From contig NZ_CP031144.1 in assembly GCF_014697215.1 (NCBI RefSeq), forward strand, positions 1-64,000: a stretch of DNA of 64,000 nt. The letters run 5' to 3'. Shown here piece after piece: positions 9,215 through 62,468 of this stretch. The position numbers and the translations under genes are program-made. Source of the stretch: Saccharopolyspora pogona. GTDB lineage: Bacteria; Actinomycetota; Actinomycetes; Mycobacteriales; Pseudonocardiaceae. The number at the start of each line of letters is the position of its first letter. Within the stretch, counting starts at the first letter, position 1. The notes below the pieces were generated by a model. The model saw nothing but the letters and a program-made list of their open reading frames with translations. It was not told where the DNA came from and did not search any database.

Positions 9215-9232
9215 GGCAAGACGGCTCGGCGG

Positions 9233-12200: not shown

Positions 12201-12550
12201 TCCCGTACCCGCGCCGCCTCGTACTTCACGCCCAGCCGCTCGCGCACGAACTGCCGGTGCCGCTTGGCCGTGCGATCCGCATCCGTTTCCGCGACCACCG
12301 TTTCCGGCAGCTCCAGAACGCCGCGCACATGGTCGACGACCGCGGCCGGAACGTCGGCGAGCTTGGCGAAATAGCCCAGCCGCTGATAGCACTTCAGCCG
12401 GACCAGCAGCGCCAGCAGATGCCGCTCGTGCTGGGTCTTGCCACGCGCCCACGTGATCTCATCCGAGGTAGGTGTGAACGCCTCGGCTAACTCCCGCACC
12501 GACACCGCGCGCTTGAAGCGTGGGTAAGCCGTGCGATCGATCGACGCCAA
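9233..12550 (-). pseudogene. tnpA: Tn3-family transposase with two frameshifts
   Basis: Large replicative DDE transposase of the Tn3 family, about 1,000 residues when joined across frames. The N-terminus (TTG 12550) reads ASIDRTAYPRFKRAVSVREL. Near 12040 one base is missing and the frame changes before RFFAMVAARPDRAERARL. The central and catalytic part is intact (GDGQIVAVDGSQ, ETIHADTQGQSLPVFGVAALLG, RIRNWHDLNFYRP). Near 9497 the frame changes again and continues CLREGIDPRIAVEVEALSPG to a stop at 9233. Neither break lies in a long homopolymer, so true decay is likely. Confidence 0.9.
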
Positions 12551-12681: not shown

Positions 12682-13245
12682 CACATGCGCGTGTCCACCG
12701 GCGACCAGAACCCCGCCGCCCAGCGCGACGCGCTCATCCGCGCCAGCGTCGCCGAGGAGAACATCTACGTCGACCACACCTCCGGTGCGAAGTCCTCCCG
12801 GCCGCAGTGGGACGTGGTGAACAAGGTGCTGCGCGCCGGGGATGTGCTCGTGTGCACCCGCCTGGACCGGGTCGGGTGCTCGACCGCGCATCTGGTCTCG
12901 CTGTTGGACGAGTTCCGCAGGCGCGACGTCGCGTTCCGGTTCCTGGAGTAGGGCATCGACACCACCACCGCCGAAGGCCGCATGGTCTACCGGATGCTGG
13001 CCGCCGTCGCCGAATTCCAGCGCGACCTCATCGTGGCCAACACCCACGAGGGACTGGCAGCAGCTCGCGCCCGCGGGCGGAAGGGCGGCCGGCGGCCGAA
13101 GCTCACCGCACACCAGGCCGAGCTCGCCCAGCAGCTCTACGACGCCCGCGAGAAGACCGTCCAGGAGATCGCCGACCTGTTCACCGTGCCCCGCAGCACG
13201 ATCTACGGCTACCTCAACAAGTCCGACCAGCCCTCCGGCGCTTAA
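12682..13245 (+). pseudogene. Tn3-type serine resolvase, truncated and with an amber codon
   Basis: Serine resolvase of the Tn3 type. The catalytic serine survives in MRVSTGDQNPAAQRDAL, followed by YVDHTSGAKSSRPQWD and RLDRVGCSTAHLVSLLDEF. About five residues are missing at the N-terminus, replaced by unrelated DNA at about 12683. A TAG at 12949-12951 interrupts the frame where relatives continue into GIDTTTAEGRMVYRMLAAV. The C-terminal helix-turn-helix (TVQEIADLFTVPRSTIYGYL) is intact. Two lesions suggest it is inactive. Confidence 0.85.
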
Positions 13246-48229: not shown

Positions 48230-49515
48230 GACCGACGGCTCCTAGCTCCCGACGGTGCGCCTTTGTCCTGACCAGGGGATGTGGTGGCGGTCTGCGCACC
48301 GGATCGGGCCGCCTGAACCCCCTTCTGCGCGATGGCGGCGGCGGCCAGCACGCCACCAGTGGCAGCGGATCCTGCGGCGGCGCCCATCTTCGCCGCGCCG
48401 GCCGCTGCGGCCTTGCCGCCGCTGCCGGAGATCAGCCCTGCGCCACGGCCGCCGCCAGCGCTACCGGCTGCACCGCCACCCGCTGCACCGGCCGACGTGC
48501 CACCGCCGTTGAACCGCGCGGCACGCCCACCGCCACCGGAACCGCGGCCACCGCGGCTGCTCAACAGCCGCGCACCCGTTGCGGCGGCGGCACCCACAGC
48601 ACCGCCGGCGGCCGCACCGGCTGACGAGCCGCCACTGATGGAGGCCACTACCGGGGTGATCAGCCGCATCAGCGCAGGCAGCGCGAGCACGCTGATGATG
48701 AGCATGAAGACGCCGAGGAACGGGCCCACCACGAAGTCGCCTTTGGACACGCTCCAGAACGAGCCCGCGAAGCACACACCAGCGGTGGGCTTCCACGCGC
48801 CGAACGCGAACACCCAGGCGAGGAGCTTGTCGCGTCCTTCACGGGCAGTCCCGCCGCCGATCGCGGCCGCGGCGGAGAACGGCAGTGCACCAGCGAGCAG
48901 CACCAGGCACGCCGAGCGCGCGAAGGACATGAAGATCTGGGCCATCCCAGCGAACACGCCGAACAGACAGAGGATGAGCATCAGCATCGAGCCAAGCGGC
49001 CCGAAGAGCCCGACCCCGGTGAATTGGTCCATCGCCGCAGCGAAGTCCGGGCCCGTGGCGCGGGTGATGATCCACGAAGCGAACTGATCACCCGCGATGG
49101 TGACCGCGGAGATTCCCGCTGTGCCGCCGGCGCTGATCAGGATCCACTTGGCGATGTCCTTAGTCAGATCACGCAGCGGCGTTTCACCGTCGCGCGCCAG
49201 AGCGAGACGTCCAGCCGCGATGATCATGCCGAACATCGCCGCGGCCAGCATGTAGAAGGACAGGTGCCGCTGGATCTCGGCGACGGTGCCCGACGACCCG
49301 GTCAGGCCAGGGGTCGGGAAGTCGACCCACCAGGTCACCATCGTCTTGACCACCCAGGCGTAGGCCTCGCGCATCGCCTGGGCCGTCGAGTTCAGAAACG
49401 CGTTCCCGGCCGACGCGGCGGCCTCACCGGCAACCCCGCCGATGATGGCAGGGGCAGCCAGCGCCGGGTTCGCGGCGCAGACCGCGACCATCTCCGGGGT
49501 GTCGCACATTCCCAT
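48226..49515 (-). CDS. VirB6/TrbL-like polytopic channel protein
   Basis: The 429-residue protein has at least five hydrophobic helices (HLSFYMLAAAMFGMIIAAGR, LMLILCLFGVFAGMAQIFMS, SACLVLLAGALPFSAAAAIG, FLGVFMLIISVLALPALMRL) and a Gly/Ala-rich C-terminal tail of about 130 residues. The pattern and place match VirB6/TrbL inner-membrane channel subunits. The stop overlaps the next gene's ATG. Confidence 0.75.
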   Translation of the reverse strand: MGMCDTPEMVAVCAANPALAAPAIIGGVAGEAAASAGNAFLNSTAQAMREAYAWVVKTMVTWWVDFPTPGLTGSSGTVAEIQRHLSFYMLAAAMFGMIIAAGRLALARDGETPLRDLTKDIAKWILISAGGTAGISAVTIAGDQFASWIITRATGPDFAAAMDQFTGVGLFGPLGSMLMLILCLFGVFAGMAQIFMSFARSACLVLLAGALPFSAAAAIGGGTAREGRDKLLAWVFAFGAWKPTAGVCFAGSFWSVSKGDFVVGPFLGVFMLIISVLALPALMRLITPVVASISGGSSAGAAAGGAVGAAAATGARLLSSRGGRGSGGGGRAARFNGGGTSAGAAGGGAAGSAGGGRGAGLISGSGGKAAAAGAAKMGAAAGSAATGGVLAAAAIAQKGVQAARSGAQTATTSPGQDKGAPSGARSRRS

Positions 49516-49518
49516 CGA

Positions 49519-50214
49519 TCACACCCCCGACCACGGCGTGTAGAAGGACAGGTCCTTCAGCGGTGTCACCGTCGAGCTGGCCGATCCGTTGGGCTGCAGT
49601 TCCAGCCGCCAGTCTCCGTCGACCCAGCGCACCGTCACCGTGGAGCCCATCAGCGCACCCGTCCCGGACTTCGAGGCGAATTGGATCACCGCGGTGTTGA
49701 TGTCGTAGGTGACGAACCGGAACCCCGCCACCTGCATCGCTTCGTTGTCGCCCAGGCTGGGGTCGGTCACGGTGCTGCGCGCCTTGATGAAGGCCTCCTT
49801 GCCGGGTCCGTCGAGGACCTGGCGGTCGACGACCTCACGCCACCCGTCGCCCGGGGTGAGCAGCATCCGGGTGTTGATGTTCCAGGCGGCGATCAGCGCC
49901 CCCACCGGAGATCGCTGGTAGCCCTCCGCCGCCGGGCTGCCCTGGCTCCGGGGGCCGGCCTCCGTGGAGTCCGGCACCGCAACCCGGCCGACGAGCGACC
50001 ACTGCGCCGCAGGGCCCTCGACCGGCAGTCCCTGCTCGCCGCTGGGGGCGTCATCTGGCTGCGCGGTGGAGGGGGCGGGACGTGCGGGCGGCGCCACCAC
50101 GTCGGCGGGGGCGGCGGATTCCTTCCCCCCGAACACCAGGAGCAGGCCGCCGAGCACCAGCACACTGCCGACGACCACCGCGGCCGCGATCAAGGTCCAC
50201 TTCTTCCGCATCAT
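49519..50214 (-). CDS. VirB8-like single-pass conjugation protein
   Basis: ATG 50214 starts a 231-residue protein with one N-terminal membrane helix (WTLIAAAVVVGSVLVLGGLL), a Pro/Ala-rich linker and an extracytoplasmic alpha/beta domain (PVGALIAAWNINTRMLLTPG, VAGFRFVTYDINTAVIQFAS, VTVRWVDGDWRLELQPNG). This NTF2-like arrangement resembles VirB8/TcpC proteins that scaffold the channel. Confidence 0.7.
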   Translation of the reverse strand: MMRKKWTLIAAAVVVGSVLVLGGLLLVFGGKESAAPADVVAPPARPAPSTAQPDDAPSGEQGLPVEGPAAQWSLVGRVAVPDSTEAGPRSQGSPAAEGYQRSPVGALIAAWNINTRMLLTPGDGWREVVDRQVLDGPGKEAFIKARSTVTDPSLGDNEAMQVAGFRFVTYDINTAVIQFASKSGTGALMGSTVTVRWVDGDWRLELQPNGSASSTVTPLKDLSFYTPWSGV

Positions 50215-50228
50215 CTGTTTGTCCTCAC

Positions 50229-50516
50229 TCAGCCGAACGTGGCCAGACCTGCGGCGAGCCCGAAGATGTTGCTGAGCACGATGCAGGCGACCAACGGTTT
50301 CCACACGCCTGTGGCCTCATCGCCGCCGCCGAAGCCCTGGCGGTGGCTGATCGCCATCTTCGCGGCGAAAAGCGCAATACCGCCGATGCAGCACGCGAAG
50401 CCGATCCACAAGCCCCATTGCATAAGCAGCATGATCTTTTCCGAGCCGGGCGGGGCAATCGGTCCGCCCGGATTGGGCATCTGCGCGGCCACCGCCACGG
50501 CGAGCTGAACGAACAT
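50229..50516 (-). CDS. small two-helix membrane protein, pilin-like (VirB2 position)
   Basis: The 95-residue protein has two hydrophobic helices (LLMQWGLWIGFACCIGGIAL and VWKPLVACIVLSNIFGLAAG) around a short basic loop (AAKMAISHRQGFGGG). Size, topology and operon place fit the VirB2-type channel or pilin subunit, but sequence alone does not prove it. Confidence 0.6.
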   Translation of the reverse strand: MFVQLAVAVAAQMPNPGGPIAPPGSEKIMLLMQWGLWIGFACCIGGIALFAAKMAISHRQGFGGGDEATGVWKPLVACIVLSNIFGLAAGLATFG

Positions 50517-50532
50517 TGCTGACTCCTTGGTC

Positions 50533-51159
50533 TTAGCGCTGGGACGACGTCGCGCAGCCGGTGAGCTGGGCGAGGTCCTGGGCGAGGCGGGTCACGGGCG
50601 CCGGGAGCGGCCCGGCCGTCGGATCGGGCCGAGCGGATCGCCACTCCGTGATCCACGGGATTTGCCAAGCCCGCGGATATGCCCTGGACACAACCTTCGT
50701 GAACTGCCGAACGGCCGAATCCGGCCGAACCGGCGCATCGGCGACGAGCACCAGGCCGAGCACCGAGATGCTGGCCGGGATCAGCCCGGTGATCGCCTGA
50801 CGGGCGAAGTCCTGCGCGTGCACGAGGCCGTCACTGTGGTTGCGGGCGACGACGACAACGAACGGCGATTGCCCACCGCCGCCGGCGGGCAGTTGCCGCC
50901 GCGCATCCCCCGCCAGCCGCGGCATCGCGTGCACGAGCGTGCTCACGCCCGCACCGCCGTGCAGGCCGACCAGCCACACCCACGGGTTGCTGTGGCCGGC
51001 GTCCGGCCACGGCTGCACGGCCCCGTTCCAGGCGCGTACCTGCCTCCATCCGGGCGGGGGCTCGACTCCAGCGCAGCCGGCCCGCTCAGCGTTCGCTGCT
51101 GCGGTCGACGAGGCCCACGTGAACGGGGCCAACGTCTCCGGGATTTCAACTGCTGTCAC
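50533..51159 (-). CDS. DUF6668-like protein, first gene of the secretion operon
   Basis: The 208-residue protein has a degenerate P-loop-like start in WLVGLHGGAGVSTLVHAMPR, followed by VVVVARNHSDGLVHAQDFAR and VLGLVLVADAPVRP, the layout of a ParA/MinD-like fold with GGAGVST in place of GKGGVGKT. Such proteins head actinobacterial transfer operons and may position the channel. The missing lysines make ATP hydrolysis doubtful. Confidence 0.6.
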   Translation of the reverse strand: MTAVEIPETLAPFTWASSTAAANAERAGCAGVEPPPGWRQVRAWNGAVQPWPDAGHSNPWVWLVGLHGGAGVSTLVHAMPRLAGDARRQLPAGGGGQSPFVVVVARNHSDGLVHAQDFARQAITGLIPASISVLGLVLVADAPVRPDSAVRQFTKVVSRAYPRAWQIPWITEWRSARPDPTAGPLPAPVTRLAQDLAQLTGCATSSQR

Positions 51160-51160
51160 A

Positions 51161-51219
51161 TGTTCAAACTACAACATTCTGCTACGAGATGCACGAACTG
51201 TTGTACATAGTTCAAATTG
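51161..51219. promoter_or_regulatory. divergent promoter/operator between secretion operon and regulator
   Basis: AT-rich region with GTTCAAACT at 51162-51170, a GAACT-N9-AGTTC dyad at 51195-51213 centred on TGTACA, and GTTCAAATT overlapping it. It sits between two divergent operons, so one regulator, probably the HTH protein at 51307, could control both. Confidence 0.5.
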
Positions 51220-51306
51220 CTGCATACTGTGGCGGGGTGTCGCGATCGATCGGGAAGCGCACGCGAGAATCCACGACGACAGACGAGGTCGACCGAAAGA
51301 TGGCCA

Positions 51307-51555
51307 ATGAGCGAGAAACAGCAGGGCGAGACGCCCGGAAGCTGGGAAGAGCAGGTCGCGGGTCTGGAAGAGCTGCTGACCGCGAAGGAAGCGGCGATCG
51401 TGCTTCGCATGCACCCGGTGACCGTCCGCAGGCTCGCGGCCGAGGGGGACATCCCCGGCACCAAGATCGGCAACGAGTGGCGCTTCCGAAAGTCGGCCCT
51501 GCTCAAGTTGTTGCAGGTCGAGCTCGACACGCCGCCAGAGGCATCGCAGGAGTAG
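51307..51555 (+). CDS. excisionase-family HTH regulator
   Basis: The 82-residue protein carries a MerR/excisionase-type winged helix: LLTAKEAAIVLRMHPVTVRR, LAAEGDIPGTKIGNEWRFRK, SALLKLLQVEL. It is the first gene divergent from the secretion operon and lies beside AT-rich dyads, so it is the likely local transcription regulator. Confidence 0.75.
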   Translation: MSEKQQGETPGSWEEQVAGLEELLTAKEAAIVLRMHPVTVRRLAAEGDIPGTKIGNEWRFRKSALLKLLQVELDTPPEASQE

Positions 51556-52046
51556 CCCTGCTGGTGGCGGGGTGCGGCGGTGGCAGCACGCCACCCGCCG
51601 CACCGCCACCACCTCCGGCCGTCCCCGCGACGCAGGGCGACCCGCAAAGCTCGTGCGACGGGCTCGCACTTGCGTGGCTGGCCGCCGACACCACCACCGA
51701 CACAGGGCCGGACGCCGCCCGCCACCGCGCCGCCGAGCAGTACGGCACCCCGCGCCTGCAACAGCAGATCGGCGACGCCGACCCGACCCGACCCGATGCA
51801 CAGTGGAGCGAGTGGAGCGCCCACCGCGCCCGCATCATCACCGCGACCGGCACCTACAACGGCGAAGCGCCTCCCACTCCCGGCGAGGGCGACCGCGGCC
51901 GGTTTGCCGCCACCCTCACCACCCGCACCGCCACCGGCGCCGACGGCTGGAACTCTCCCCTTCCGGATGTGGTGGTCTACTGCACGCTGGTCGAGCAGGC
52001 CGGGCAGTGGCGCGTCGACGACCTGCAGACCGGGATCGCCCAGTGA
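51477..52046 (+). CDS. secreted lipoprotein of the transfer region
   Basis: The basic-hydrophobic N-terminus ends in a lipobox, GIAGVALLVAGCGGG. The mature part (SSCDGLALAWLAADTTTDTG, VVYCTLVEQAGQWRVDDLQ) is a small extracytoplasmic domain with two cysteines. The start is uncertain: GTG 51477 lies inside the HTH gene in another frame, and no better start codon precedes the signal segment. Its stop overlaps the peptidase start, so export of both products may be linked. Confidence 0.55.
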   Translation: MALPKVGPAQVVAGRARHAARGIAGVALLVAGCGGGSTPPAAPPPPPAVPATQGDPQSSCDGLALAWLAADTTTDTGPDAARHRAAEQYGTPRLQQQIGDADPTRPDAQWSEWSAHRARIITATGTYNGEAPPTPGEGDRGRFAATLTTRTATGADGWNSPLPDVVVYCTLVEQAGQWRVDDLQTGIAQ

Positions 52047-53080
52047 CCGCCGGCAAAACCTCCACGCTGGTCGGTGGAGGCGTCGCCGCAGTGGGCATGC
52101 TCGGGATGATGCTGGGCATCGTGCTGGGAGGCTCGGCCCAGATCAACCTCGCCGACCTGGGCACCGTCGGCATCGGTAGCCAGCTCAAGCCCGGTGTCGT
52201 GCCTGCGCAGTACGTCGAGCTGGTGCAGCGCGCCGGGAGCCAGTGCCCCGAGATCACGCCGCCGCTGATCGCCGCGCAGATCGATCAGGAAAGCAAGTGG
52301 GACCCGACCGCCGGCAGCGGCAAGGGCGCGCAGGGGATCGCGCAGTTCATGCCGGGCACCTGGCGCACCTATGGCCGTGACGAGAACGGCGACGGGTTGG
52401 CCAACGTCTACGACCCGGCCGACGCCATCCCCGCTCAAGGCCGCATGATGTGCGAGCTGATCGACACGATGAAGGGCTGGCTGAAAGCAGGGAAAGTCGA
52501 AGGCGATCTCGTCGACTTGGCCCTGGCCGGCTACAACGCCGGTCCGGGCGGACCCAACAGCGACAAGGGCGTGTACGTCCACGGCGGAGTTCCGCCTTAC
52601 GCCGAGACCCAGACCTACATCAAGCGGATCCGGAAACTGGCCGCAGAGTACGCCCAGCCCGCGCCGACCGTGCCGGCAGGAAACGGGGCCGGGTGGGTCA
52701 CTCCGGCGGCCGGCCGCTGTAGCTCGCCGTTCGGGCCGCGATGGGGGACGTTCCACCGGGGACAGGACATCGCAGGTCCGATCGGCACGCCGATCCTCGC
52801 CGCTTCCGCCGGCACCGTCATCGCCTCTGGTCCCGCGTCCGGCTACGGCCTGTGGGTGAAGATCCAGCACCCCGGCGGGGTCGTCACGATCTACGGCCAC
52901 AACAACCGCAACACGGTCGCGGTCGGGCAGCAGGTCGCCGCCGGCCAGCAGGTCGCCGAGATCGGCGACCGGGGCCAGTCCACCGGACCCCACCTGCACT
53001 ACCAGGTCGAGGTCAACGGCCAGCCCGTCGATCCGGTCAGTTGGCACCAGCAGCAGGGAGCGCCGCCGTTGTGCGGCTGA
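52043..53080 (+). CDS. lytic transglycosylase and M23 peptidase fusion
   Basis: Cell-wall opening enzyme of the secretion system. After a membrane anchor (GGGVAAVGMLGMMLGIVLGG), residues 70-190 are a soluble-lytic-transglycosylase domain with catalytic Glu83 in AAQIDQESKWDP, then GAQGIAQFMPGTW and LAGYNAGPG. Residues 240-335 are an M23/LytM endopeptidase with HRGQDIAGPIGTPI, VVTIYGHNN and GPHLHYQVEV, which hold the zinc ligands. GTG 52043 overlaps the preceding stop. Confidence 0.85.
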   Translation: MTAGKTSTLVGGGVAAVGMLGMMLGIVLGGSAQINLADLGTVGIGSQLKPGVVPAQYVELVQRAGSQCPEITPPLIAAQIDQESKWDPTAGSGKGAQGIAQFMPGTWRTYGRDENGDGLANVYDPADAIPAQGRMMCELIDTMKGWLKAGKVEGDLVDLALAGYNAGPGGPNSDKGVYVHGGVPPYAETQTYIKRIRKLAAEYAQPAPTVPAGNGAGWVTPAAGRCSSPFGPRWGTFHRGQDIAGPIGTPILAASAGTVIASGPASGYGLWVKIQHPGGVVTIYGHNNRNTVAVGQQVAAGQQVAEIGDRGQSTGPHLHYQVEVNGQPVDPVSWHQQQGAPPLCG

Positions 53081-53086
53081 TCACCC

Positions 53087-53551
53087 ATGACCGAGCTCGC
53101 GAATCTCCTGCTGATCGCCGCACCGACCGTGCTGGCGGTGTGGATCACCACGCACCAGGTCGCGGTGTGGTGGCGACGTCGCCGCCCCGCGTACCACGAT
53201 CTCGCCCCCGACCTGCGAGCCATCCGCACCGAACGCCGTACGAGCCCGCGCGACGAATCCCGGCTGTTGCTGACCTGCTACGGCCCGGCCGCCGCCGACG
53301 AAATCGCCTGGCAGCGCCGGGTCGCTGACGTCGAGGACGCCATCGAAACCGCGCTGCTGCGCGCCGGAACCGACGACGCCGCAGCACTGGCCTTGCGCCA
53401 CGACCAGGGCCACGACACCGCCGGGCGGTGGCTGTGCTGGACGATCCCCGCCCCGCACGGCCCCCAAGTGATGCGCGTGCTGCCGCGCCTGCTGACCAAC
53501 CGCGGCCGTTTCACCGCCGACTACCACCTGGTACTCGGCGAACCCCGATGA
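53087..53551 (+). CDS. hypothetical membrane-anchored protein, 154 residues
   Basis: One N-terminal helix (ANLLLIAAPTVLAVWITTHQ), a basic WWRRRRP stop-transfer, then a cytoplasmic part (HDLAPDLRAIRTERRTSPRD, WQRRVADVEDAIETALLRAG). A later segment, WLCWTIPAPHGPQVMRVLP, recurs as LQCWAIPGPHGPALLTIL in the protein at 55702, so the two are related. Function unknown. Confidence 0.6.
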   Translation: MTELANLLLIAAPTVLAVWITTHQVAVWWRRRRPAYHDLAPDLRAIRTERRTSPRDESRLLLTCYGPAAADEIAWQRRVADVEDAIETALLRAGTDDAAALALRHDQGHDTAGRWLCWTIPAPHGPQVMRVLPRLLTNRGRFTADYHLVLGEPR

Positions 53552-53569
53552 ACGAGAAGGAGTTGCTCC

Positions 53570-54094
53570 ATGGCTGTGAAGACTGTTTTCAAGATCACCT
53601 ACCGGCAGTGTGGCCACACCGAGGAGAAGGATCTCAGTAAGAAAAAGGCCGCCGACCGGGCCGGGTTCGCAAGGTGGCTGGAGCAGAAGGCCACCTGCAC
53701 CGACTGCTGGCGGGCCGAACAAGGGCACCCGCCCCGCGGCGAATGGATCGAGGACAGAGCCCAATGGCTCGCTACCAAACGCGAGCAGGAGAACCAGGAT
53801 GCCGAGCAGTGGGCCAAGGACGCCCAGATGCCGCCGCTCAACGGCAGCGAGAAGGCCGTGGCCTGGGCCAGCCGGGTGCGCCACCAGGCCCTGCGCGAGC
53901 TCTACATCTGGGCTGTCCAGGACGATCACGCCCCTGACGACTACGACCTTGCCGAGGAGACCGCGCGAACGATCGACCGCGCGAGCTGGTGGCTCGACCA
54001 GCGCAAGCAGATCGAGGACGACCCCGGGGCGCTGCTGGAGTTGCTGCAGTCGGCCGCCGACGGGGGCGGCGTCGACTGCGAAAACACCTACTGA
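53570..54094 (+). CDS. hypothetical protein with zinc-like Cys/His motif
   Basis: ATG 53570 follows AAGGAG. The start (FKITYRQCGHTEEKDLSKKK, ATCTDCWRAEQG) contains CGH and CTDC that could bind zinc. The rest is helical (WASRVRHQALRELYIWAVQD, ARTIDRASWWLDQRKQIEDD). No family recognised. Co-transcribed with the cell-wall enzyme and replication-type genes. Confidence 0.55.
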   Translation: MAVKTVFKITYRQCGHTEEKDLSKKKAADRAGFARWLEQKATCTDCWRAEQGHPPRGEWIEDRAQWLATKREQENQDAEQWAKDAQMPPLNGSEKAVAWASRVRHQALRELYIWAVQDDHAPDDYDLAEETARTIDRASWWLDQRKQIEDDPGALLELLQSAADGGGVDCENTY

Positions 54095-54116
54095 CGAACT
54101 GACGAGGAGAAACACA

Positions 54117-54362
54117 ATGCCCGGCCCGATCAGCGCAGAACAGATGCAAACCGCCATCGCCCACGGCACCGCAACGCCGCTGCTGCCCGAGGGCGTGCCC
54201 GGCCCGATCCACCACAGTGGACAGTGGTGGTGCATCCCCCACGGCGACGCCGACTACCAGCCCGTTTCCGGTGAACAGGCCGCCGAGCTCGACCAGTTCG
54301 CCGAGCGCCTGGCCGCCGGAGCCCAGGCACTCCAGCGCGCCCAGGGGCAATCATGGCGATGA
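54117..54362 (+). CDS. hypothetical protein, 81 residues
   Basis: ATG 54117 after GAGGAG. Reads ISAEQMQTAIAHGTATPLLP, IHHSGQWWCIPHGDADYQPV, then a helical C-terminus. The stop lies inside the next gene's first codons. Unknown function. Confidence 0.55.
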   Translation: MPGPISAEQMQTAIAHGTATPLLPEGVPGPIHHSGQWWCIPHGDADYQPVSGEQAAELDQFAERLAAGAQALQRAQGQSWR

Positions 54363-55705
54363 CCCCACGTGAGTTCGCGGAACGATCCCTGCTCGGTGTG
54401 CTGCTCGACGAGCCCGGCCGCCTACGCGACCTGGACTATTTGCGCGCCGAGGACTTCCGGTCGCCCGCCTACCAGGTGCTGTATCGCACGCTCGGTGAGA
54501 TGGTCGCCGAAGCCGACGCAGCACTGGCCGAGACCCTGGCCGACGAGGATTTCGACTGGCAGGACGAGATGCTCGGCGACGACCTGGTTGTCGGCGGCGT
54601 CGCCTACGACCGCACGGAGTACAAGATCGTCGACGGCGAGGTCGAACGACGCAGCGCCGAGGAAACCCGGCGACTCCGCGAAGAACAGGCACACGAGGAC
54701 TACCAGGTGCCGGGAGTCGACCCGGTGACGGTGCACACCCGCCTACGGGAATCGGGAGACCCCCAGGTCATGCGCAGCCAGCTCCTCACCGCCCCCGGCC
54801 TGCACACCTTGATGGCCACCGCACCGGCCCGCAGTGCCCAGCCCGAGGCCTACGCACAGATCGTCCTGGAGTCCTCGATCCGGCGGCAGGTCGAGGCCGC
54901 CGGCCTACGGGTCGGCCATGCCGCCGACACCAGCCCGGAGCTGGCCGGCCTCCTGGCCGTCGTCGACACCGCGCTGGCCGAGGTCGACGACGCCCGGCAG
55001 CGCTGGGAAGCCCTGCACCCCAGCGGCGACGCCGCACCCGCGCCGCACCGCGAGCACTTGATTGCAGTCCAGGCAGATGCCGAGGTGTGGCTCGACCTGC
55101 CGCAGCAGGCACTCGTCGACGCCGAAACGGGTCTGGTCGCCGAAGCGCTGACCACGCCCCGGATTCTCGCCGAACTCGCCGCCCAGGTGCAGCCCGGCGA
55201 TTTCGGCGACAAGTCGCTGGGCGCGACCTGGGCGGCCGCGGTCGAGGTGCACGCCGCCAGCGCCACCCGAGGCCCGCACGTCGACCCGGTGACCGTCGCT
55301 TGGCAGCAGCAGCGCCAGGCCGCCGTGCACGGCGAAGGCCTGCCCGTCGAGCAGCTCGCCGAGCTCAGCCAGTCCGGATCGCTCGGTGCCGGGCACGCCC
55401 ACCGGTGCGCGAACGTCGTGCTGCGCGGATCCCTGATCAGGCTGACCACGACCGCCGCCCGATCCGTCACCGACGCCGCCCAGCAACCCGGGCTGCAGCC
55501 CAGCGACGTCCTGCACACCTCCACCCTCGCGCTGCAGGCGGTCGTGGCCACCGCCCGCCGGGTCGGCAGCCCCGCCGCCCAACTCGCCCGCCAAGCCGCG
55601 CCCGGTCCGCCAGCCAGAGAGGTGAAACCCGAAGCACAGGGCCGCGGCGAGCGGCCACCGATCGCCCGCTGCACCCCGAAGGTGCAGCCCGAGATGAGGC
55701 GATGA
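54353..55705 (+). CDS. protein with DnaB-helicase N-terminal-like domains, no helicase motor
   Basis: The 450-residue protein begins EFAERSLLGVLLDEPGRLRD and DYLRAEDFRSPAYQVLYRTL, the signature of the DnaB N-terminal domain that binds primase. A second similar segment follows in the middle (ETGLVAEALTTPRILAELAA, QVQPGDFGDKSLGATWAAAV). No Walker motifs follow, so there is no ATPase motor. It might bind the host primase or DnaB during plasmid replication or transfer; that is inference. Confidence 0.7.
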   Translation: MAMTPREFAERSLLGVLLDEPGRLRDLDYLRAEDFRSPAYQVLYRTLGEMVAEADAALAETLADEDFDWQDEMLGDDLVVGGVAYDRTEYKIVDGEVERRSAEETRRLREEQAHEDYQVPGVDPVTVHTRLRESGDPQVMRSQLLTAPGLHTLMATAPARSAQPEAYAQIVLESSIRRQVEAAGLRVGHAADTSPELAGLLAVVDTALAEVDDARQRWEALHPSGDAAPAPHREHLIAVQADAEVWLDLPQQALVDAETGLVAEALTTPRILAELAAQVQPGDFGDKSLGATWAAAVEVHAASATRGPHVDPVTVAWQQQRQAAVHGEGLPVEQLAELSQSGSLGAGHAHRCANVVLRGSLIRLTTTAARSVTDAAQQPGLQPSDVLHTSTLALQAVVATARRVGSPAAQLARQAAPGPPAREVKPEAQGRGERPPIARCTPKVQPEMRR

Positions 55706-56169
55706 TGACGCTGATCAACCCCACCCCGGCCGCCGCCGCGCACCAGCGCGGCGGCACCACCCTGCGCCGAGTCCACCGAGGACTCAAGCGCCGCGCCATC
55801 GAGCTGGTCGCCGCCGCCTGGCCCTACCGCCCGCAGCTGGTCGAGCCCGACGAACTGGACCGGGTCGTCGACTACGCCAACGGCGGCCGCCGGCTCGCGC
55901 TCGTCATGGACCGGCCTGACTCCACAGAGGCCGCGTGGCTGCAGCATCGCGAGATCGTCGAGCGCGAGTTGGACGCGGTGCTCCACGAAGCGGGCATCGC
56001 GTCGACCGCCCGCGAATTACGCCTGCATGCAGGCAAGGGCGGCCAGTTGCGTCTGCAGTGCTGGGCGATCCCGGGCCCTCACGGACCAGCACTTCTCACC
56101 ATCCTCAGCGAGCGCCTGGTCGTGCTCGACCTCGCCGACGAACCCGGCGTGACCATCACATCCGATTGA
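55702..56169 (+). CDS. hypothetical protein, 155 residues, related to the 53087 product
   Basis: ATG 55702 overlaps the preceding stop. Reads LKRRAIELVAAAWPYRPQLV, HREIVERELDAVLHEAGIAS and LRLQCWAIPGPHGPALLTIL, the last resembling a segment of the membrane-anchored protein at 53087. No membrane helix here. Function unknown. Confidence 0.55.
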   Translation: MMTLINPTPAAAAHQRGGTTLRRVHRGLKRRAIELVAAAWPYRPQLVEPDELDRVVDYANGGRRLALVMDRPDSTEAAWLQHREIVERELDAVLHEAGIASTARELRLHAGKGGQLRLQCWAIPGPHGPALLTILSERLVVLDLADEPGVTITSD

Positions 56170-56184
56170 AAGGGACGAATCATC

Positions 56185-56346
56185 ATGGCTGACCGCATTC
56201 CGATCTCCGACCTGCTCACAGCCCAGCAGGACACCATCGAAGACCTCACCGCGGCGGTGGCGCGGCACGAGCGGCAGATCACCCAGCTGATCACCGCGCT
56301 GACCCAGGCCGGCATCCCCATCCCGGATCTCGGCCGTGAGGAGTGA
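56185..56346 (+). CDS. 53-residue hypothetical protein
   Basis: ATG 56185 follows AAAGGGACG. The protein (RIPISDLLTAQQDTIEDLTA, AVARHERQITQLITALTQAG) forms one amphipathic helix or coiled coil. It overlaps the next gene by four bases, so the two are coupled. Confidence 0.6.
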   Translation: MADRIPISDLLTAQQDTIEDLTAAVARHERQITQLITALTQAGIPIPDLGREE

Positions 56347-57557
56347 GCACCATGCCCACCACCAGGAAAAGCCGCCGATCGCCCGAGGAAGCCCGCGCCG
56401 CCCGCGAGGAACGCCTCGCCGAGACCCACCAGCTGATCACCGACTACGTCGAGAGCATCAGCAGCGGCGAGGACTGGAAACGCTGGCTCGATGTCGCCGC
56501 CCGGTTCCACACCTACTCACCGAACAACCAACTGCTGATCGCACTGCAAAAGCCCGACGCCACCCAGATTGCGGGCTATAACGCCTGGCAGGACCTGGGC
56601 CGCCAAGTCCGCAAAGGCGAGAAAGGCATCACGATCCTGGCACCGGTGACGGCCATCGTCGGCTGGCGGCTGAAATCCGGGGAGGTCGTCGAATCCGAGA
56701 AACCGGTGCGCAAGACCGACGTACCGCCAGGCGCGGTGCCGGTCCGGAAAATGGTGGGCGCGAAATCGGTCAAGGTTTTCGACGTCGCCCAAACCGACGG
56801 CGAGCCTCTACCGCAGCGCCCAATCCCCGACCCGGTGTCGCTGGACGGGCCAGCACCGGAGGGCATGCGCGAAGGCTTGGCCGCGATCGTCGCCGAACAC
56901 GGCTTCACCCTCACATCCCAGCCCAGCAGGCTGGGAGAAGACGGCTACACCGACTTTGCCAGCCGAAACATCAACATCACCCCTGGTCAATCCGATGCGC
57001 AAGCAGCGTTGACACTGGCTCACGAAGTCGGGCACATGCTCATGCACGACCCAACAACCCGTGACCCCGACGAACCCGGTCACCACCGCGGCATCGGGGA
57101 AGTCGAAGCCGAATCCGTCGCGTACCTGATCGCGGGGCACTTCGGTTACGACACCCGCGACAACAGCTTCCCGTACGTGGCCGGCTGGGCAGGACAACGC
57201 AACCCCACCGAGGTCGTGCGCTCCACCGCGGAGAAGGTCGTGCGCACCGCCGGGGACATCATCGAGCGCATCCAGCCGACTGCCGACGGGCAAGTCGACG
57301 AGCAGCTCCACCAGCGCGCCGTCCTCACCCGCGCCGCGGCCGCGACCGTCAATGAACCCCACACCACCACGGAAACCACGGCCGAGCCGCAACCGGACAC
57401 CACGCAACGGCATGCAGCGGCGCCGGCCGTGCTGCTGGCCCGCCAAGCTGCGCCACGTTCGCCGACCACGTCGAAGCAGGGGCCCCAGTCTCACGGTGAG
57501 CGCCCGACCACCCACCACACCCGAGGCCAGCAGCAGGCTTTCGACCTCGGCCTTTGA
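56343..57557 (+). CDS. ArdC-like antirestriction protein with metallopeptidase domain
   Basis: Residues 1-130 match the ArdC N-terminal ssDNA-binding domain (WLDVAARFHTYSPNNQLLIA, YNAWQDLGRQVRKGEKGITI). Residues 170-300 hold a zinc metallopeptidase domain of the ImmA/IrrE type, with HEVGH at 227-231 and a third ligand in EVEAESVAYLIAGHFG. ArdC proteins protect incoming conjugative DNA from restriction. The tail is Thr/Pro-rich and disordered. GTG 56343 overlaps the previous stop; ATG 56352 is an alternative. Confidence 0.85.
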   Translation: MSTMPTTRKSRRSPEEARAAREERLAETHQLITDYVESISSGEDWKRWLDVAARFHTYSPNNQLLIALQKPDATQIAGYNAWQDLGRQVRKGEKGITILAPVTAIVGWRLKSGEVVESEKPVRKTDVPPGAVPVRKMVGAKSVKVFDVAQTDGEPLPQRPIPDPVSLDGPAPEGMREGLAAIVAEHGFTLTSQPSRLGEDGYTDFASRNINITPGQSDAQAALTLAHEVGHMLMHDPTTRDPDEPGHHRGIGEVEAESVAYLIAGHFGYDTRDNSFPYVAGWAGQRNPTEVVRSTAEKVVRTAGDIIERIQPTADGQVDEQLHQRAVLTRAAAATVNEPHTTTETTAEPQPDTTQRHAAAPAVLLARQAAPRSPTTSKQGPQSHGERPTTHHTRGQQQAFDLGL

Positions 57558-57620
57558 TCACGAAACCCTGGAGGGGCCGGGCCGAATATTCGGCCCGGCC
57601 CCTCCAGGGTTTCGTGATCA
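57555..57620. terminator. 66-bp perfect palindrome, bidirectional terminator
   Basis: Two 33-base arms are perfectly complementary with no loop, starting TGATCACGAAACCCTGG and centred on AAT/ATT. The first three bases are the stop codon of the plus-strand ArdC-like gene, and the last three are the stop codon of the minus-strand methyltransferase. A bidirectional terminator is the simplest role; a recombination junction is possible. Confidence 0.8.
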
Positions 57621-58778
57621 GGGCGTTGCGTCAGCGATGACGATCTCGGACATCCCCGGCGTGTCGAGCCAGAGCTGGTGCCTTCCGTCGGCGCTCACGG
57701 TCAGCCCGTAGCGCTGGATCCCGGGTCGGCCGTGGTCGTCAAACCACGATTCGAGAATCGGTGTCAACTCCGTCCACAAGCGACGTTGCCCGGCTTGGTG
57801 GACGACGCCTTGGCCGTCGCCGGTGGCTTCGACGCGCGCCCACGACCCGGTGCCCGGGTGCAGCCACCGGTAGGAGGTCACCGCGCCGTTCTCGTCATGG
57901 GTGAAGACCAGCCGGCTGCGGTCGGCGACGAGATCGGCGAAGAACGCGGCCATGGCGAAATCGACATCCCACGGCACCTGCTCGCGGTGCGTGCTGTCGG
58001 CCTCGCCGGAGGTCGCGTCGACAATCTGCCGCCCCTGCGGCCCGGATGGTTCTCCGGCCGATCGCAAGGGCATGAACCCGGCCGGGGACAAAAACCGGCC
58101 CGAGACGGCATCACCATCGTCCGTGCGGCGAAGAAGAACGAGGCCTTTACTGATGTTGACCAGGATCGCGCCCTCCGGTGCGAGCTGTTCCAGCCACGCA
58201 GCCGGAATCCGGCTTACCGCGCAGGTCGCGATGATCCGGTCGAACGGAGCCCGCTCGGGAACACCGGCCGCACCATTTCCGCTGACCACCACTGGGCGGT
58301 AGCCGGCCGCGGTCAGCGAGGGACGTGCGGCGGCGACCAGCTCGGCGGCGACATCGATGGTCGTGACGTTGTCCTCGCCCAGCGCCGCACACAGCAACGC
58401 CGCGTTGTAGCCGGTCCCAGTCCCGATCTCCAAGACTTGATGCCCACGCCGGGCGTCGAGTTCCTCCAGCATGGAGGCCATCAGACTCGGCTCGGTCGAC
58501 GAGCTGACCGGAACGCCTGCGTCGTCGAACTGGGTGATCAGCGTGTCGTCGGTGTAGGCCGCAGCCAGCGCCGACGCGCGGCGCTCGGTGTCCGGTGCGG
58601 TGGTGTCGTGATAGACGAACGTGCCCGATCCGGGCGTGTGGAGCGCGAATTGGGGCGCGAACAGGTGGCGTGGAACGGTCCGGAACGCCTCCCGCCACAT
58701 GGGAGTGGTGAGCACGCCGGCGGACAACTGCTCGGTTAGCCCGTTGCGCAGCGCGGTGGTGTCATCGAGGGTGGTCAT
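57618..58778 (-). CDS. PIMT-like O-methyltransferase of a graspetide cluster
   Basis: SAM-dependent methyltransferase of the protein-L-isoaspartate type: VPRHLFAPQFAL, MLEELDARRGHQVLEIGTGT for the SAM-binding glycine loop, VTTIDVAAELVAAARPSL, and RIIATCAVSRIPAAWLEQL. The 386 residues exceed plain PIMT because of a C-terminal domain, as in methyltransferases of graspetide clusters. Such enzymes methylate an Asp in the macrocyclic peptide, which then forms an aspartimide. ATG 58778 overlaps the ATP-grasp stop by four bases. Confidence 0.8.
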   Translation of the reverse strand: MTTLDDTTALRNGLTEQLSAGVLTTPMWREAFRTVPRHLFAPQFALHTPGSGTFVYHDTTAPDTERRASALAAAYTDDTLITQFDDAGVPVSSSTEPSLMASMLEELDARRGHQVLEIGTGTGYNAALLCAALGEDNVTTIDVAAELVAAARPSLTAAGYRPVVVSGNGAAGVPERAPFDRIIATCAVSRIPAAWLEQLAPEGAILVNISKGLVLLRRTDDGDAVSGRFLSPAGFMPLRSAGEPSGPQGRQIVDATSGEADSTHREQVPWDVDFAMAAFFADLVADRSRLVFTHDENGAVTSYRWLHPGTGSWARVEATGDGQGVVHQAGQRRLWTELTPILESWFDDHGRPGIQRYGLTVSADGRHQLWLDTPGMSEIVIADATP

Positions 58779-59746
58779 GACCTTCCTTGGGTGAGTTCGT
58801 CGGCAAGGGCCCGGGTGATGGCCGGGCGTAACGATTCGATCCATGCCCACTGGCCGTTCGGGTTCAGGTCGCCATGGAACTGCCACCGGCCGTCGTGGTC
58901 GACGATGAAATCGGGTGCGGCGTAGGCTAGGCCGAGCCTGCCCATCACTGCGCGAAGCCCTGCAGCGACGTCGTCGGGCACGTCGATCGGGGTCCAGGTC
59001 AGCTGGTCATGCACCGCACGCCAGTCCACTGTGTCCACACCGGGCGGGGTGTCGATACGGGCGGCGAACAGCCGGTCACCGACGACGGTGACCCGCACCG
59101 CGTACGCGCACGGAACCCGGACCTGGAACAAGTGCGTAGTGCGCCGGACCCCGTCGGTGATCTCCCCGGCCGACACGGTATCCGCGCGCAGCGCGACACG
59201 GTCACCGTTCTCCGACCCCGGGCCACCGGTCAACGGCTTGTAGATCACCCCGGCCTTCCGGTGGGCCCAGCAGAAATCGCGAGCCTGAGCAGGGTCGTTG
59301 GTCACCAACGACTCCGGCACCGCCAGGCCACAGGCCACCGCCACCGCCATCTGCAGAGGTTTGTAGCCGGCTACGGCGATCAGGTCCGGGCGGCTGACCC
59401 ACCGCACATCGAGCGCAGCGAGCAGGCCGCCGAAGCCCACGCGTGCTTCGGCGGCCGCCCACTGCTGCTCCGTTCTGGTCATCCCTGGGGCCAGCGCGAA
59501 CGGTGACGGCTTGCGGTACCAGACACTCTCCACAGCGGACAGGTCCACATCGCGCACCCGGCCACGCAGCGCGCCGGTCCACCGGGTACGGCCCGGCACC
59601 AGATAGGCGACCTGGGTCAAGGCCTCGGGAAAATCCGCGAGGTCGAAACGAACCACACCGACGTCCCGCCGGGCGAGCTCGGCGATCACCAGGTCGGCCG
59701 TGATGTCGAGGTCCTGGCTAATAACCAAAACTGAGGCAGCACCCAT
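58775..59746 (-). CDS. ATP-grasp peptide ligase (graspetide maturase)
   Basis: ATP-grasp enzyme of 323 residues with the layout of ribosomal-peptide maturases: SVLVISQDLDITADLVIAEL at the N-terminus, VWYRKPSPFAL, GVIYKPLTGGPGS for the nucleotide-binding lysine, RVPCAYAVRVTVVGDRLFAA, and DFIVDHDGRWQFHGDLNPNG for the magnesium-binding Asp/Asn. It forms ester or amide links between side chains of the precursor. ATG 59746 follows AGGA; TTG 59767 is an alternative. It overlaps the methyltransferase and follows the precursor directly. Confidence 0.85.
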   Translation of the reverse strand: MGAASVLVISQDLDITADLVIAELARRDVGVVRFDLADFPEALTQVAYLVPGRTRWTGALRGRVRDVDLSAVESVWYRKPSPFALAPGMTRTEQQWAAAEARVGFGGLLAALDVRWVSRPDLIAVAGYKPLQMAVAVACGLAVPESLVTNDPAQARDFCWAHRKAGVIYKPLTGGPGSENGDRVALRADTVSAGEITDGVRRTTHLFQVRVPCAYAVRVTVVGDRLFAARIDTPPGVDTVDWRAVHDQLTWTPIDVPDDVAAGLRAVMGRLGLAYAAPDFIVDHDGRWQFHGDLNPNGQWAWIESLRPAITRALADELTQGRS

Positions 59747-59750
59747 CAGA

Positions 59751-60050
59751 TCAGTCCTGGTCGACAAACCACTGCATGTCGTACTGCGTGTCGTACGACG
59801 TCCCCGCCACGATCACATCAGGCGAGTCGACGAACGGGCGCTCGCCGGCGTCGACGTTGAGCTGCCGGACCGCGTCATAGCTGACGGCCGGCAGCGATAC
59901 CACCGCCTCACCCTCGCCCAAGGCTTTCGCCCGCGTCAGCCCGAACGGCCGGACCGCACCCTCCGACGGCACATCCGACGACACCGTCAGCGCCGCCTGC
60001 CGTGCCGGCAACGGATTCAGCACAGCAGGATCATCAAGAACGCTGCTCAT
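59751..60050 (-). CDS. ATP-grasp-modified peptide precursor (graspetide)
   Basis: The 99-residue precursor starts at ATG 60050 after a strong AAGGAG. The leader contains RPFGLTR at 34-40, the conserved leader motif of actinobacterial ATP-grasp-modified peptides. The core, about residues 72-99, holds hydroxyl donors Ser76, Thr84, Ser85 and Thr88 and acid acceptors Asp75, Asp78, Asp87, Asp91, Asp97 and Asp99 (GTSYDTQYDMQWFVDQD). The product is predicted to be a macrocycle closed by side-chain esters, then methylated and possibly turned into an aspartimide. Ring pattern not predictable. Confidence 0.8.
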   Translation of the reverse strand: MSSVLDDPAVLNPLPARQAALTVSSDVPSEGAVRPFGLTRAKALGEGEAVVSLPAVSYDAVRQLNVDAGERPFVDSPDVIVAGTSYDTQYDMQWFVDQD

Positions 60051-60076: not shown

Positions 60077-60150
60077 CACAGCGCCCGAGCCGGGCGCTGT
60101 GAGAACGAGGTGTGCCTGTCACCTCCGAGGGGGCGAAGGTGACAGGCACA
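60077..60150 (-). promoter_or_regulatory. two stacked hairpins upstream of the precursor gene
   Basis: TGTGCCTGTCACCT pairs with AGGTGACAGGCACA (60111-60150), and CACAGCGCCCG pairs with CGGGCGCTGTG (60077-60101). Both lie in the probable 5' leader of the precursor mRNA, the nearer one about 27 bases before the start codon, with no U tract. They may stabilise the message, attenuate readthrough from 60183, or control translation. Confidence 0.5.
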
Positions 60151-60182
60151 CGAAGGAACCGGGCGCGTGCAACCCGGTCCCA

Positions 60183-60689
60183 TCAGCCGACCACCGAGTG
60201 GTGGTCGGTCTGGATCAAGCGGGCACGCTCGATCTCGGCACGCAGATCTCCCGCCGAACCCGCATCAGCCGGAACGGGCGGAGCAGGCGGCACCTGCTCG
60301 ACGACCACCGGCTCCGACACAGGACGGTGGTAATGAATCCCGCTTTCCAGCCAGTGCTCCGGGATCATCCGCCCGTTGCAGTTCCACTCCTCCAGCCGCG
60401 CACTGATCTCATTCCACAACCGGCGGGGACCGACCTCACCGATCCAGGTCCGTGCCCGCGCCTGGCGGCGGTCCCAAGCGATCACCACCCGCACCGCCGA
60501 GCGGGTCGCGGGATCGACGAGCACATGCTCATCCTGCTCATCCGGCCAGCAACTCCGGGTGTGCTCCACACCCGGCATCGCCGCAGCCAGCACCGACGGA
60601 AACGCCGGATGCTCCAGACCGGACAGCGTCCGCGCTGGCATCAGCGGCGCCGCCTGCAACTGCACGTCCACATCGGACACCACGCTCAC
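60183..60689 (-). CDS. hypothetical protein upstream of the peptide cluster
   Basis: The 168-residue protein reads TRSAVRVVIAWDRRQARART, WIGEVGPRRLWNEISARLEE and IPEHWLESGIHYHRPVSEP. RLWNEI and the W-rich context resemble part of the C-terminal domain of the graspetide methyltransferase (RRLWTELTPILESW). It may therefore be a related recognition module. Function not known. Confidence 0.55.
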   Translation of the reverse strand: MSVVSDVDVQLQAAPLMPARTLSGLEHPAFPSVLAAAMPGVEHTRSCWPDEQDEHVLVDPATRSAVRVVIAWDRRQARARTWIGEVGPRRLWNEISARLEEWNCNGRMIPEHWLESGIHYHRPVSEPVVVEQVPPAPPVPADAGSAGDLRAEIERARLIQTDHHSVVG

Positions 60690-60761: not shown

Positions 60762-61073
60762 TCAGCCCGCCGCCGCCAACCACGACTCCGACTCGCCACA
60801 CGAACTGCCCACGACCTCGCCCTGCACTACCAGCGCTTCGACGACCTCGAAATGCCGGACCACACACGCGCGGCACGGACGCGCACCCACCACCTCGTTC
60901 GAGGCACCCGCATTCAGGCCGCACAACGTGCGGCCCGGGGACTCGGGGGCGCGCTCGTGCACGTTCCCTTCGTGATCCACGAAGACCTCGACAACAGGCG
61001 TCGTCTCAGGCCAGGTCTCCGGCACGGTGCTCAGCGATCTACCGGCGTCGACGATGGTGTTGGTGGTCATCAA
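60762..61073 (-). CDS. hypothetical protein with a short Cys-containing motif, 103 residues
   Basis: Starts ATGATG at 61073 after GAGGAG. Reads TPVVEVFVDHEGNVHERAPE and then RTLCGLNAGASN, ARPCRACVVRHFEVVEALVV; the Cys pattern may bind zinc. It is divergent from the HTH regulator at 61394, with a palindromic operator between them. Confidence 0.5.
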   Translation of the reverse strand: MMTTNTIVDAGRSLSTVPETWPETTPVVEVFVDHEGNVHERAPESPGRTLCGLNAGASNEVVGARPCRACVVRHFEVVEALVVQGEVVGSSCGESESWLAAAG

Positions 61074-61251: not shown

Positions 61252-61287
61252 CCGTTAGCGAATATACGCGCGTATATTCGCTAGCGG
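61252..61287. promoter_or_regulatory. 36-bp palindromic operator candidate
   Basis: TAGCGAATATACGC and its complement form a perfect 28-base dyad at 61256-61283, extended to 36 bases with one mismatch pair. It is AT-rich at the centre and lies between divergent genes, upstream of the HTH regulator. Confidence 0.65.
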
Positions 61288-61393: not shown

Positions 61394-62257
61394 ATGGGCG
61401 ACGCTCCGCTAACTGTCGGTAGTTATGCTCTCGGCAACCGACTGCGGCGATACCGCACCGAGATCGGTCTCTCCGCCGCCGACGTCGCCCGAACCGTCGG
61501 CGTCACCCAACCGACCGTGACCCGCATCGAGCGAGGTAAACACCGTCTCACCCCTAAACAGCTGACCTCGTTGTGCGAGATCTACGAGCTCAGTCCTGAC
61601 GATCGCGCAACACTCGAAGAGGTGCGGGTCACGGCCACCAAACCGGACTGGCGGCAGGACTATCAGCAACTCATCGACGGCCCGCTGGGCGACGTCCTTG
61701 GACTGGAAACCGGCGCCACCAAAATCCGTGGCCACGACGGACAACTCATCCTCGGCCTGCTGCAGACCGAGGAATACGCCACCAGTCTCATGCAAGAAGC
61801 GCCGTACATCCGTGCAGTCGAGATCCAGCGACGCGTCGCACTGCGAATGCGTCGCCAAGAAGGCGTGCTACACGGCCGGCAAGAGCTCATCGCCGTGATC
61901 GGCGAAGGCGCTCTGCGGCAGCAAGTCGGCGGCATTGATGTGATGCGCCGTCAGATCGCCCACCTCCGCGACCTGAGCGAACGCGACAACATCATGATCC
62001 GGATGCTGCCCTACACGGCCGGCGCACATGCAGCACTGGGCTCCGCCTTCAACATCCTCGACTTCGACAGCACCATCGACCTCCCGACCGTCGTCTGCGT
62101 TGACACCCTCACCAGCGCACTCATTTACGAGCAGCCCGAGAGGGTGGAAACCTTCACCCAGTCCTTCGACATGATGATGGTCCGGACGCTCGGAGAAACC
62201 GAGACGATCAAGCAGCTCGACCAAATCGACTGCGACTTGAAGAAGCAAGGACCCTAA
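61394..62257 (+). CDS. XRE-family regulator with DUF5753
   Basis: The 287-residue regulator is of the kind common in streptomycetes and relatives. Residues 14-72 are a Cro/C1 helix-turn-helix (LRRYRTEIGLSAADVARTVG, VTQPTVTRIERGKHRLTP). The remainder is DUF5753, recognised by GLLQTEEYATSLM, RVALRMRRQEGVLHG, LPYTAGAHAALGSAFNILDF and TLTSALIYEQPERVETF. ATG 61394 follows GAGGAGG. Genes of this type usually pair with a DUF397 gene, as here. Confidence 0.85.
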   Translation: MGDAPLTVGSYALGNRLRRYRTEIGLSAADVARTVGVTQPTVTRIERGKHRLTPKQLTSLCEIYELSPDDRATLEEVRVTATKPDWRQDYQQLIDGPLGDVLGLETGATKIRGHDGQLILGLLQTEEYATSLMQEAPYIRAVEIQRRVALRMRRQEGVLHGRQELIAVIGEGALRQQVGGIDVMRRQIAHLRDLSERDNIMIRMLPYTAGAHAALGSAFNILDFDSTIDLPTVVCVDTLTSALIYEQPERVETFTQSFDMMMVRTLGETETIKQLDQIDCDLKKQGP

Positions 62258-62258
62258 G

Positions 62259-62468
62259 ATGAACCACTCCGAGGCCGCCCCACTCCCGTGGCGCACCTCC
62301 ACCTACAGCCAGAACAACGCCGCATGCGTGGAGATCGCCATGACTCCGATCGAGGTGGGTGTGCGCGATACCAAGGACCGCAGCGGCGGGCAGCTCAACG
62401 TCCCAGCTGCTCGGTTCGCTGCCTTCATCGACACGATCAAGGCCACGAACGGCTGGCGTAGCGCCTGA
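62259..62468 (+). CDS. DUF397 protein
   Basis: The 69-residue protein has the DUF397 pattern: WRTSTYSQNNAACVEIAMTP, EVGVRDTKDRSGGQLNVPAA, RFAAFIDTIKATNGWR. It lies one base after the DUF5753 gene, the standard regulatory pair of actinomycetes. It probably binds or modulates its HTH partner. Confidence 0.85.
   Translation: MNHSEAAPLPWRTSTYSQNNAACVEIAMTPIEVGVRDTKDRSGGQLNVPAARFAAFIDTIKATNGWRSA

Follow-up and report, generated by a model that had tools for sequence, protein, structure and literature searches.

The 64,000-nucleotide stretch analyzed here (positions 1 to 64,000 of the forward strand of contig NZ_CP031144.1, assembly GCF_014697215.1, called the window in the following) comes from the actinobacterium Saccharopolyspora pogona and carries three adjoining minus-strand genes for a precursor peptide, an ATP-grasp ester ligase and a PIMT-like L-aspartyl O-methyltransferase (PAMT). 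They form a real, open-framed, plasmid-borne graspimiditide cluster, ordinary in kind and with a predicted chemistry. Its features are:

57555-57620: perfect palindrome of 66 bp on which the ArdC and methyltransferase genes converge and within which both have their stop codons
57618-58778, minus strand: PAMT with an extra C-terminal domain, 386 amino acids (Pfam PCMT, 1.3e-28; TIGR04188)
58775-59746, minus strand: ATP-grasp ester ligase (graspetide synthetase, tgmB type), 323 amino acids from its ATG (TIGR04187, 355.7 bits, cut-off 350)
59751-60050, minus strand: graspimiditide precursor, 99 amino acids (TIGR04186 GRASP_targ, 31.2 bits, cut-off 25)
59754-59804, minus strand: precursor core GTSYDTQYDMQWFVDQD, residues 83-99
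59931-59951, minus strand: precursor leader motif RPFGLTR, residues 34-40

The original prediction had placed a three-gene operon here and interpreted it as a graspetide cluster in which a PIMT-type enzyme does the tailoring. All three genes were found at this place and on this strand, and the matches to TIGR04186, TIGR04187 and TIGR04188 bear out the described functions. The three frames are open and a ribosome-binding site precedes the precursor. The most likely start of the ligase is the ATG at 59746, four bases past the precursor stop, and that of the methyltransferase the ATG at 58778, which overlaps the ligase stop in an ATGA; the longer open reading frames from TTG 59767 (ligase) and GTG 58886 (methyltransferase) are mechanical extensions. 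The C-terminal pattern TxxDTxxDxxWxxDxD of the precursor occurred in a single one of the 2062 stop-to-stop segments of the window. At the far end of the operon, the palindrome 57555-57620 is probably a two-way terminator; a 20-base part of its arm had no other copy in the 9.6-Mb genome at ≤2 mismatches.

Graspimiditide is the name proposed for the group 13 graspetides in a 2026 review by Zhu and Link (PMC13001092; this and the other papers cited here are drawn on in excerpt). The ligase is of the peptide-maturase type, scoring above the TIGR04187 cut-off, and a profile search recognized its MvdD pre-ATP-grasp domain. The precursor, above the TIGR04186 cut-off, combines a C-terminal Thr/Asp core with RPFG, the conserved recognition tetrapeptide of graspimiditide precursors according to the excerpted text of PMC13003496. 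The adjoining PIMT homolog has the extra C-terminal domain and the S-adenosylmethionine motif EIGTGTGYN, and its match to TIGR04188 (335.4 bits, E 5e-100) spans positions 5-362 of 363, despite lying below the curated cut-off of 380. The label "imiditide-type" used in the original prediction has to be replaced: imiditides, or type I pamtides, consist of a precursor and a PAMT only, and this assignment was rejected because the ATP-grasp ligase sits between the two genes. The likeness to imiditides lies in the PAMT-made aspartimide or isoaspartate, the difference in their linear substrate, made without an ATP-grasp ligase (PMC13001092, in part).

Among the known systems, fuscimiditide of Thermobifida fusca (ThfA/ThfB/ThfM) likewise has a precursor with RPFG leader, an ATP-grasp ligase and a PIMT homolog (excerpts of PMC12291112, PMC13003496 and PMC13001092). 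Its two nested Thr-Asp esters link Thr-3 to Asp-22 and Thr-7 to Asp-18, with the aspartimide in the loop (PMC12291112, in excerpt). Compared by description rather than alignment, the fuscimiditide core has 22 residues, a donor/acceptor spacing of 4/4 and Gly after the modified site, whereas the window's tail has 17 residues, a spacing of 4/2 and Asp-Met. Amycolimiditide, albusimiditide and SsfA(BM) share the group 13 gene set, a stem-loop ester peptide and one modified loop Asp, but have Asp-Gly sites. The four characterized graspimiditides bear two to five esters, with five in SsfA, and in all of them Gly follows the methylated Asp and the site lies in a loop (PMC13001092, as far as its excerpted text goes).

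Used as its own query, the precursor found two relatives besides itself, and one of the two, a protein of Saccharopolyspora sp. NPDC002376, is identical to the window core in 16 of 17 residues. A wider core set was obtained by a search with a 14-row alignment (E ≤ 0.01), which gave 38 proteins, the window's own included; all of them fitted D[MNHSG][QRT], the Asp of which, corresponding to D91 of the precursor, served as the anchor of the alignment. In this set position 88 is Thr (37) or Ser (1), position 84 is Thr (34), Ser (2) or Cys (2), position 97 is Asp except for one Glu, and position 99 is Asp in 30 proteins. At position 85, 19 of the 38 proteins have Ser or Thr and the others have Pro, His, Asn, Arg, Gln, Lys or Val, while position 87 is Asp in 27, Asn in four, Thr and Gln in two each, and Pro, Lys and Glu in one each. 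The residue following D91 (n+1) is Met in 12, Asn in 11, His in seven, Ser in four and Gly in four proteins, and a Trp stands at +3 from D91 in 30. Two near-invariant hydroxyl residues, together with acidic residues after D91, suggest two esters, and the sequences thus point to Thr-Asp esters between T84/T88 and D97/D99. They also point to D91, in its Asp-Met context, as the methylated and aspartimide-forming residue, since the four Gly cases at n+1 tie D91 to the Asp-Gly site of the characterized products.

We infer the following chemical steps and ring connectivity. Recognizing the leader by its RPFG tetrapeptide, the ligase would join Thr and Asp side chains in two esters; by analogy with fuscimiditide, these are most likely nested, with T84-D99 as the outer and T88-D97 as the inner one. 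The resulting hairpin would hold D91 in an eight-residue loop, and the PIMT-like enzyme would then methylate D91 of the cyclized peptide. The methyl ester would close to an aspartimide with Met92, the later opening of which would lead mainly to isoaspartate, and the leader would be cut off by a protease; no leader protease was found within the cluster. The ester macrocycle with aspartimide of the original prediction is right as a prediction.

Two other assignments of the core residues were weighed. The same pathway might install at least three esters if S85, D87 or the C-terminal carboxylate took part in addition to T84 and T88. We regard this as a possible but clearly less probable map: characterized members do reach five esters, and in SsfA the C-terminus is believed to take part (PMC13001092, PMC10787088, both in excerpt), and Asp predominates at position 87, but the near-invariant hydroxyl positions number only two, Ser or Thr stands at position 85 in just half of the proteins, and D87 is replaced in 11 of 38. 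The latter variation also disfavors D87 as the methylated residue, an assignment that appears unlikely to us. It would recall the DTAD motif of aspartimidylated lasso peptides, in which, according to the part of PMC13001092 used, the Asp preceding Thr is modified; the D87-T88 pair resembles this motif and Asp is the commonest residue at 87. Against it, T88 is the best candidate for an ester donor, and D91 is kept in 38 of 38 proteins (by anchor) with Gly at n+1 in four of them. The two-ester scheme with D91 as the modified residue is therefore retained in the following.

Upstream of the operon, the window contains these further features:

60077-60101: hairpin with 11-bp perfect arms, directly upstream of the ribosome-binding site of the precursor
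60110-60151: hairpin with 15-bp perfect arms and a 12-base loop, between the following gene and the precursor
60183-60689, minus strand: CTD-like protein, a stand-alone relative of the PAMT C-terminal domain, upstream of the precursor (TIGR04188 positions 279-346 only, E 1.1e-4)
60762-61073, minus strand: small Cys-containing protein (CGL...CRAC), the gene of which opens the series of minus-strand genes (open reading frame)
61256-61283: perfect 28-bp palindrome, predicted XRE operator, with the 14-bp core TATACGCGCGTATA
61394-62257, plus strand: XRE regulator with DUF5753, divergent from the operon (PF13560, PF19054)
62259-62468, plus strand: DUF397 partner of the XRE regulator (PF04149, 1.2e-16)

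The divergent XRE-DUF5753/DUF397 pair would be the likely switch of the cluster, acting via the palindrome 61256-61283. The regulator is 66% identical to that beside the related cluster of genome G067 and 71.6% identical to that on plasmid NZ_CP134055, and TATACGCGCGTATA recurs upstream of both, with one mismatch at the G067 cluster (L108) and none on NZ_CP134055 (L147); it was present in none of 15 other loci scanned at ≤2 mismatches. In two whole genomes, CATACGCGCGTATA with ≤1 mismatch was found at the window's site, at one other place in the S. pogona genome (G000) and at one in G067, and the backwards control of this search gave zero matches. XRE/DUF397 neighbors have been reported for graspetide groups 11 and 13 (PMC13097080) and DUF5753 regulators near graspetides also in PMC8939145, and XRE-DUF397 pairs are described as regulators of antibiotic production in Streptomyces (PMC10364602; all three in excerpt). 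The paired hairpins at 60077-60151, which were not found in 12 relatives, are a possible attenuator or mRNA-stability element. The cluster is also adjoined by a gene for an APH-superfamily phosphotransferase (PF01636, 62927-63865, plus strand).

The CTD-like protein could be a required partner of the pathway, comparable to the partner proteins of rosaritide. It lies on the same strand beside the precursor and matches the methyltransferase alignment (hhalign 93.3%, E 2.8e-7, 58 columns) in the domain that is proposed to bind the substrate in PAMTs (PMC10787088, PMC13001092, in excerpt), and partner-dependent graspetides exist (PMC13097080, in excerpt). Matches to it occurred in 29 of 390 family genomes, own included, the weakest of which may be PAMTs themselves. 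The analysis covered 18 loci outside the window that hold such a gene (L112-L117, L149-L160), and in seven of these the larger neighbors were scanned against NCBIfam. Peptide-pathway genes were seen in five of the seven: an FxLD-system methyltransferase is encoded in L150 and L156, a TIGR03891 thiopeptide/lantibiotic-type domain in L150 and L151, and an albusnodin-type lasso cyclase in L117 and L152. However, none of the 18 loci gave a match to a graspetide ligase or precursor, and none of 14 relative graspetide loci has a separate CTD-like gene (E ≤ 1e-3), the three matches there (L104, L109, L111) each lying inside the methyltransferase gene. As 11 of the 18 loci adjoin a divergent XRE-DUF5753-like gene (tblastn), the protein may belong to the regulator; we assign it to the regulator's neighborhood and see a small chance of a pathway role, an indispensable one being improbable. 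A more far-reaching idea, which we hold to be speculative, is a regulator-plus-cargo cassette of XRE-DUF5753/DUF397, operator, small Cys protein and free PAMT domain. It would move among plasmids and chromosomes of one family and be joined to a graspetide pathway here and to lanthipeptide-like or lasso pathways elsewhere; by binding the modified peptide, the free domain would act as a sensor, as an immunity factor or as a partner that presents it. The small Cys protein 60762-61073 had no Pfam match.

Fourteen loci were retrieved on the basis of a precursor match, and all 14 have the gene order precursor, ligase, methyltransferase. The ligase match of L103 and L104, both of genome G022, is split across two frames, reflecting either decay or a sequencing error. 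A branch supported at 99/94 sets the 12 ligases of the window's core type apart in a tree of 26 ligases; the two ligases of a variant core (QDMxxWPD) are nearest to them, and 12 other Saccharopolyspora ligases, including that of the own chromosome, group at 100/99. The other Saccharopolyspora methyltransferases likewise split off at 100/100 in a methyltransferase tree of 25 rows. These other group 13 clusters of the genus, including that starting at 595,357 of the own chromosome, follow the same ligase-methyltransferase logic but differ in ligase clade, and in eight of the 12 the leader motif is RPWGLR or RPFGLR and the core Asp-Gly; the Asp-Gly core is absent from the L018 precursor, and in three loci no precursor was found.

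Judged by protein name, the relatives include Actinosynnema, Actinophytocola, Actinopolyspora and Actinoalloteichus. Among 22 genomes of the genus Saccharopolyspora, a ligase above the TIGR04187 cut-off was found in ten, and the only strong match to the window's precursor type was the window's own, two other genomes giving weak ones (E 6e-4 and 1e-8). This distribution fits a lateral arrival on the plasmid, of which it is no proof. The S. pogona chromosome itself carries the second, Asp-Gly type graspimiditide cluster at 595,357-596,292 of contig C1 (L002), so that cross-modification between the two systems is conceivable.

The genome consists of three contigs, and the window is the start of C3, which is 85,530 bases long. 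Positions 74856-85530 of C3 repeat its initial 10,670 bases at 99.86%, with 0 mismatches and 12 gap openings; since the contig ends match, we take C3 to be a circular plasmid of about 74.9 kb from which the overlap had not been removed at assembly, so that the genes in the first 10.7 kb of the window appear twice in the record. The plasmid encodes a type IV coupling protein of the TraG/TraD type (43504-45429; PF12696, PF02534), an FtsK-gamma protein, a ParA-like protein, an M23/SLT peptidase and ArdC, whereas its other transfer-ATPase candidates matched no Pfam family above cut-off. The "conjugative element" of the original prediction thus stands as far as the circular plasmid and its coupling protein are concerned; no relaxase was seen among the plasmid proteins scanned, which did not include every open reading frame. 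Transposition genes are also present, with a Tn3-family transposase at 9057-12452 (minus strand) and a resolvase N-terminal piece at 12685-13245 (plus strand) that is followed by a second open reading frame.

A related replicon is the 47.5-kb circular plasmid NZ_CP134055 of Saccharopolyspora sp. ID03-671, typed as non-mobilizable. Its genes are collinear with window positions 43504-57557 except for one short out-of-order match. ArdC is followed by a DUF397/XRE pair on this plasmid as well, though in the opposite orientation and beside a different operon. The cargo past ArdC includes an aminotransferase and another methyltransferase, and the annotation shows no graspetide gene in it. In PLSDB, 69 of 72,556 plasmid records match the ligase at E ≤ 1e-5, all with <60% identity; a tgmB annotation is attached to 17 of the 20 matches listed, and some others may be other ATP-grasp enzymes. 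The plasmid setting, which had been singled out as a means of spread, is thus confirmed but not exceptional.

Taken together, we consider it likely that the plasmid carries as cargo a group 13 graspetide pathway with two esters and an aspartimide at D91. Several observations weigh against this scheme. The D91 count is partly circular, because the rows were anchored on D[MNHSG][QRT], the Trp at +3 is absent in eight of the 38 proteins, and the tail after D91 is longer in 14. With a donor spacing of 4 and an acceptor spacing of 2 instead of 4/4, the ring map may differ from that of fuscimiditide. Besides its sub-threshold TIGR04188 score, the methyltransferase has one extra residue in its WXXXGXP-like motif (WFDDHGRP), and its tree does not unite the 12 core-type loci (three changes). 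Finally, two extra genes and two hairpins separate the operator from the precursor, unlike in G067. Plasmid cargo is often unstable, but a silent or decayed cluster without product is very unlikely in view of the three open frames, the ribosome-binding site, the abutting or overlapping starts and the conserved core and operator.

The core had been put forward as one without a described product. Keyword searches of the literature and PDB sequences revealed none for this core type, letters in figures and supplements lying outside the searchable text, but the core is not isolated, given its near-identical relative and the 38 proteins. Core motifs suggest other n+1 residues (Ser, Arg, Thr, Asn, Lys, Met, His) according to the excerpted part of PMC13001092, and the core relatives may therefore already sit in a published core cluster.

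In contrast to the four characterized products with their Gly, most members of the core type have Met, Asn, His or Ser after D91 in a short two-donor core, and thus offer a natural test of the effect of the n+1 residue on aspartimide stability and on the isoaspartate ratio. A silent cluster might be activated by way of the predicted operator, and the S. pogona plasmid represents a case of a graspimiditide pathway as mobile cargo.

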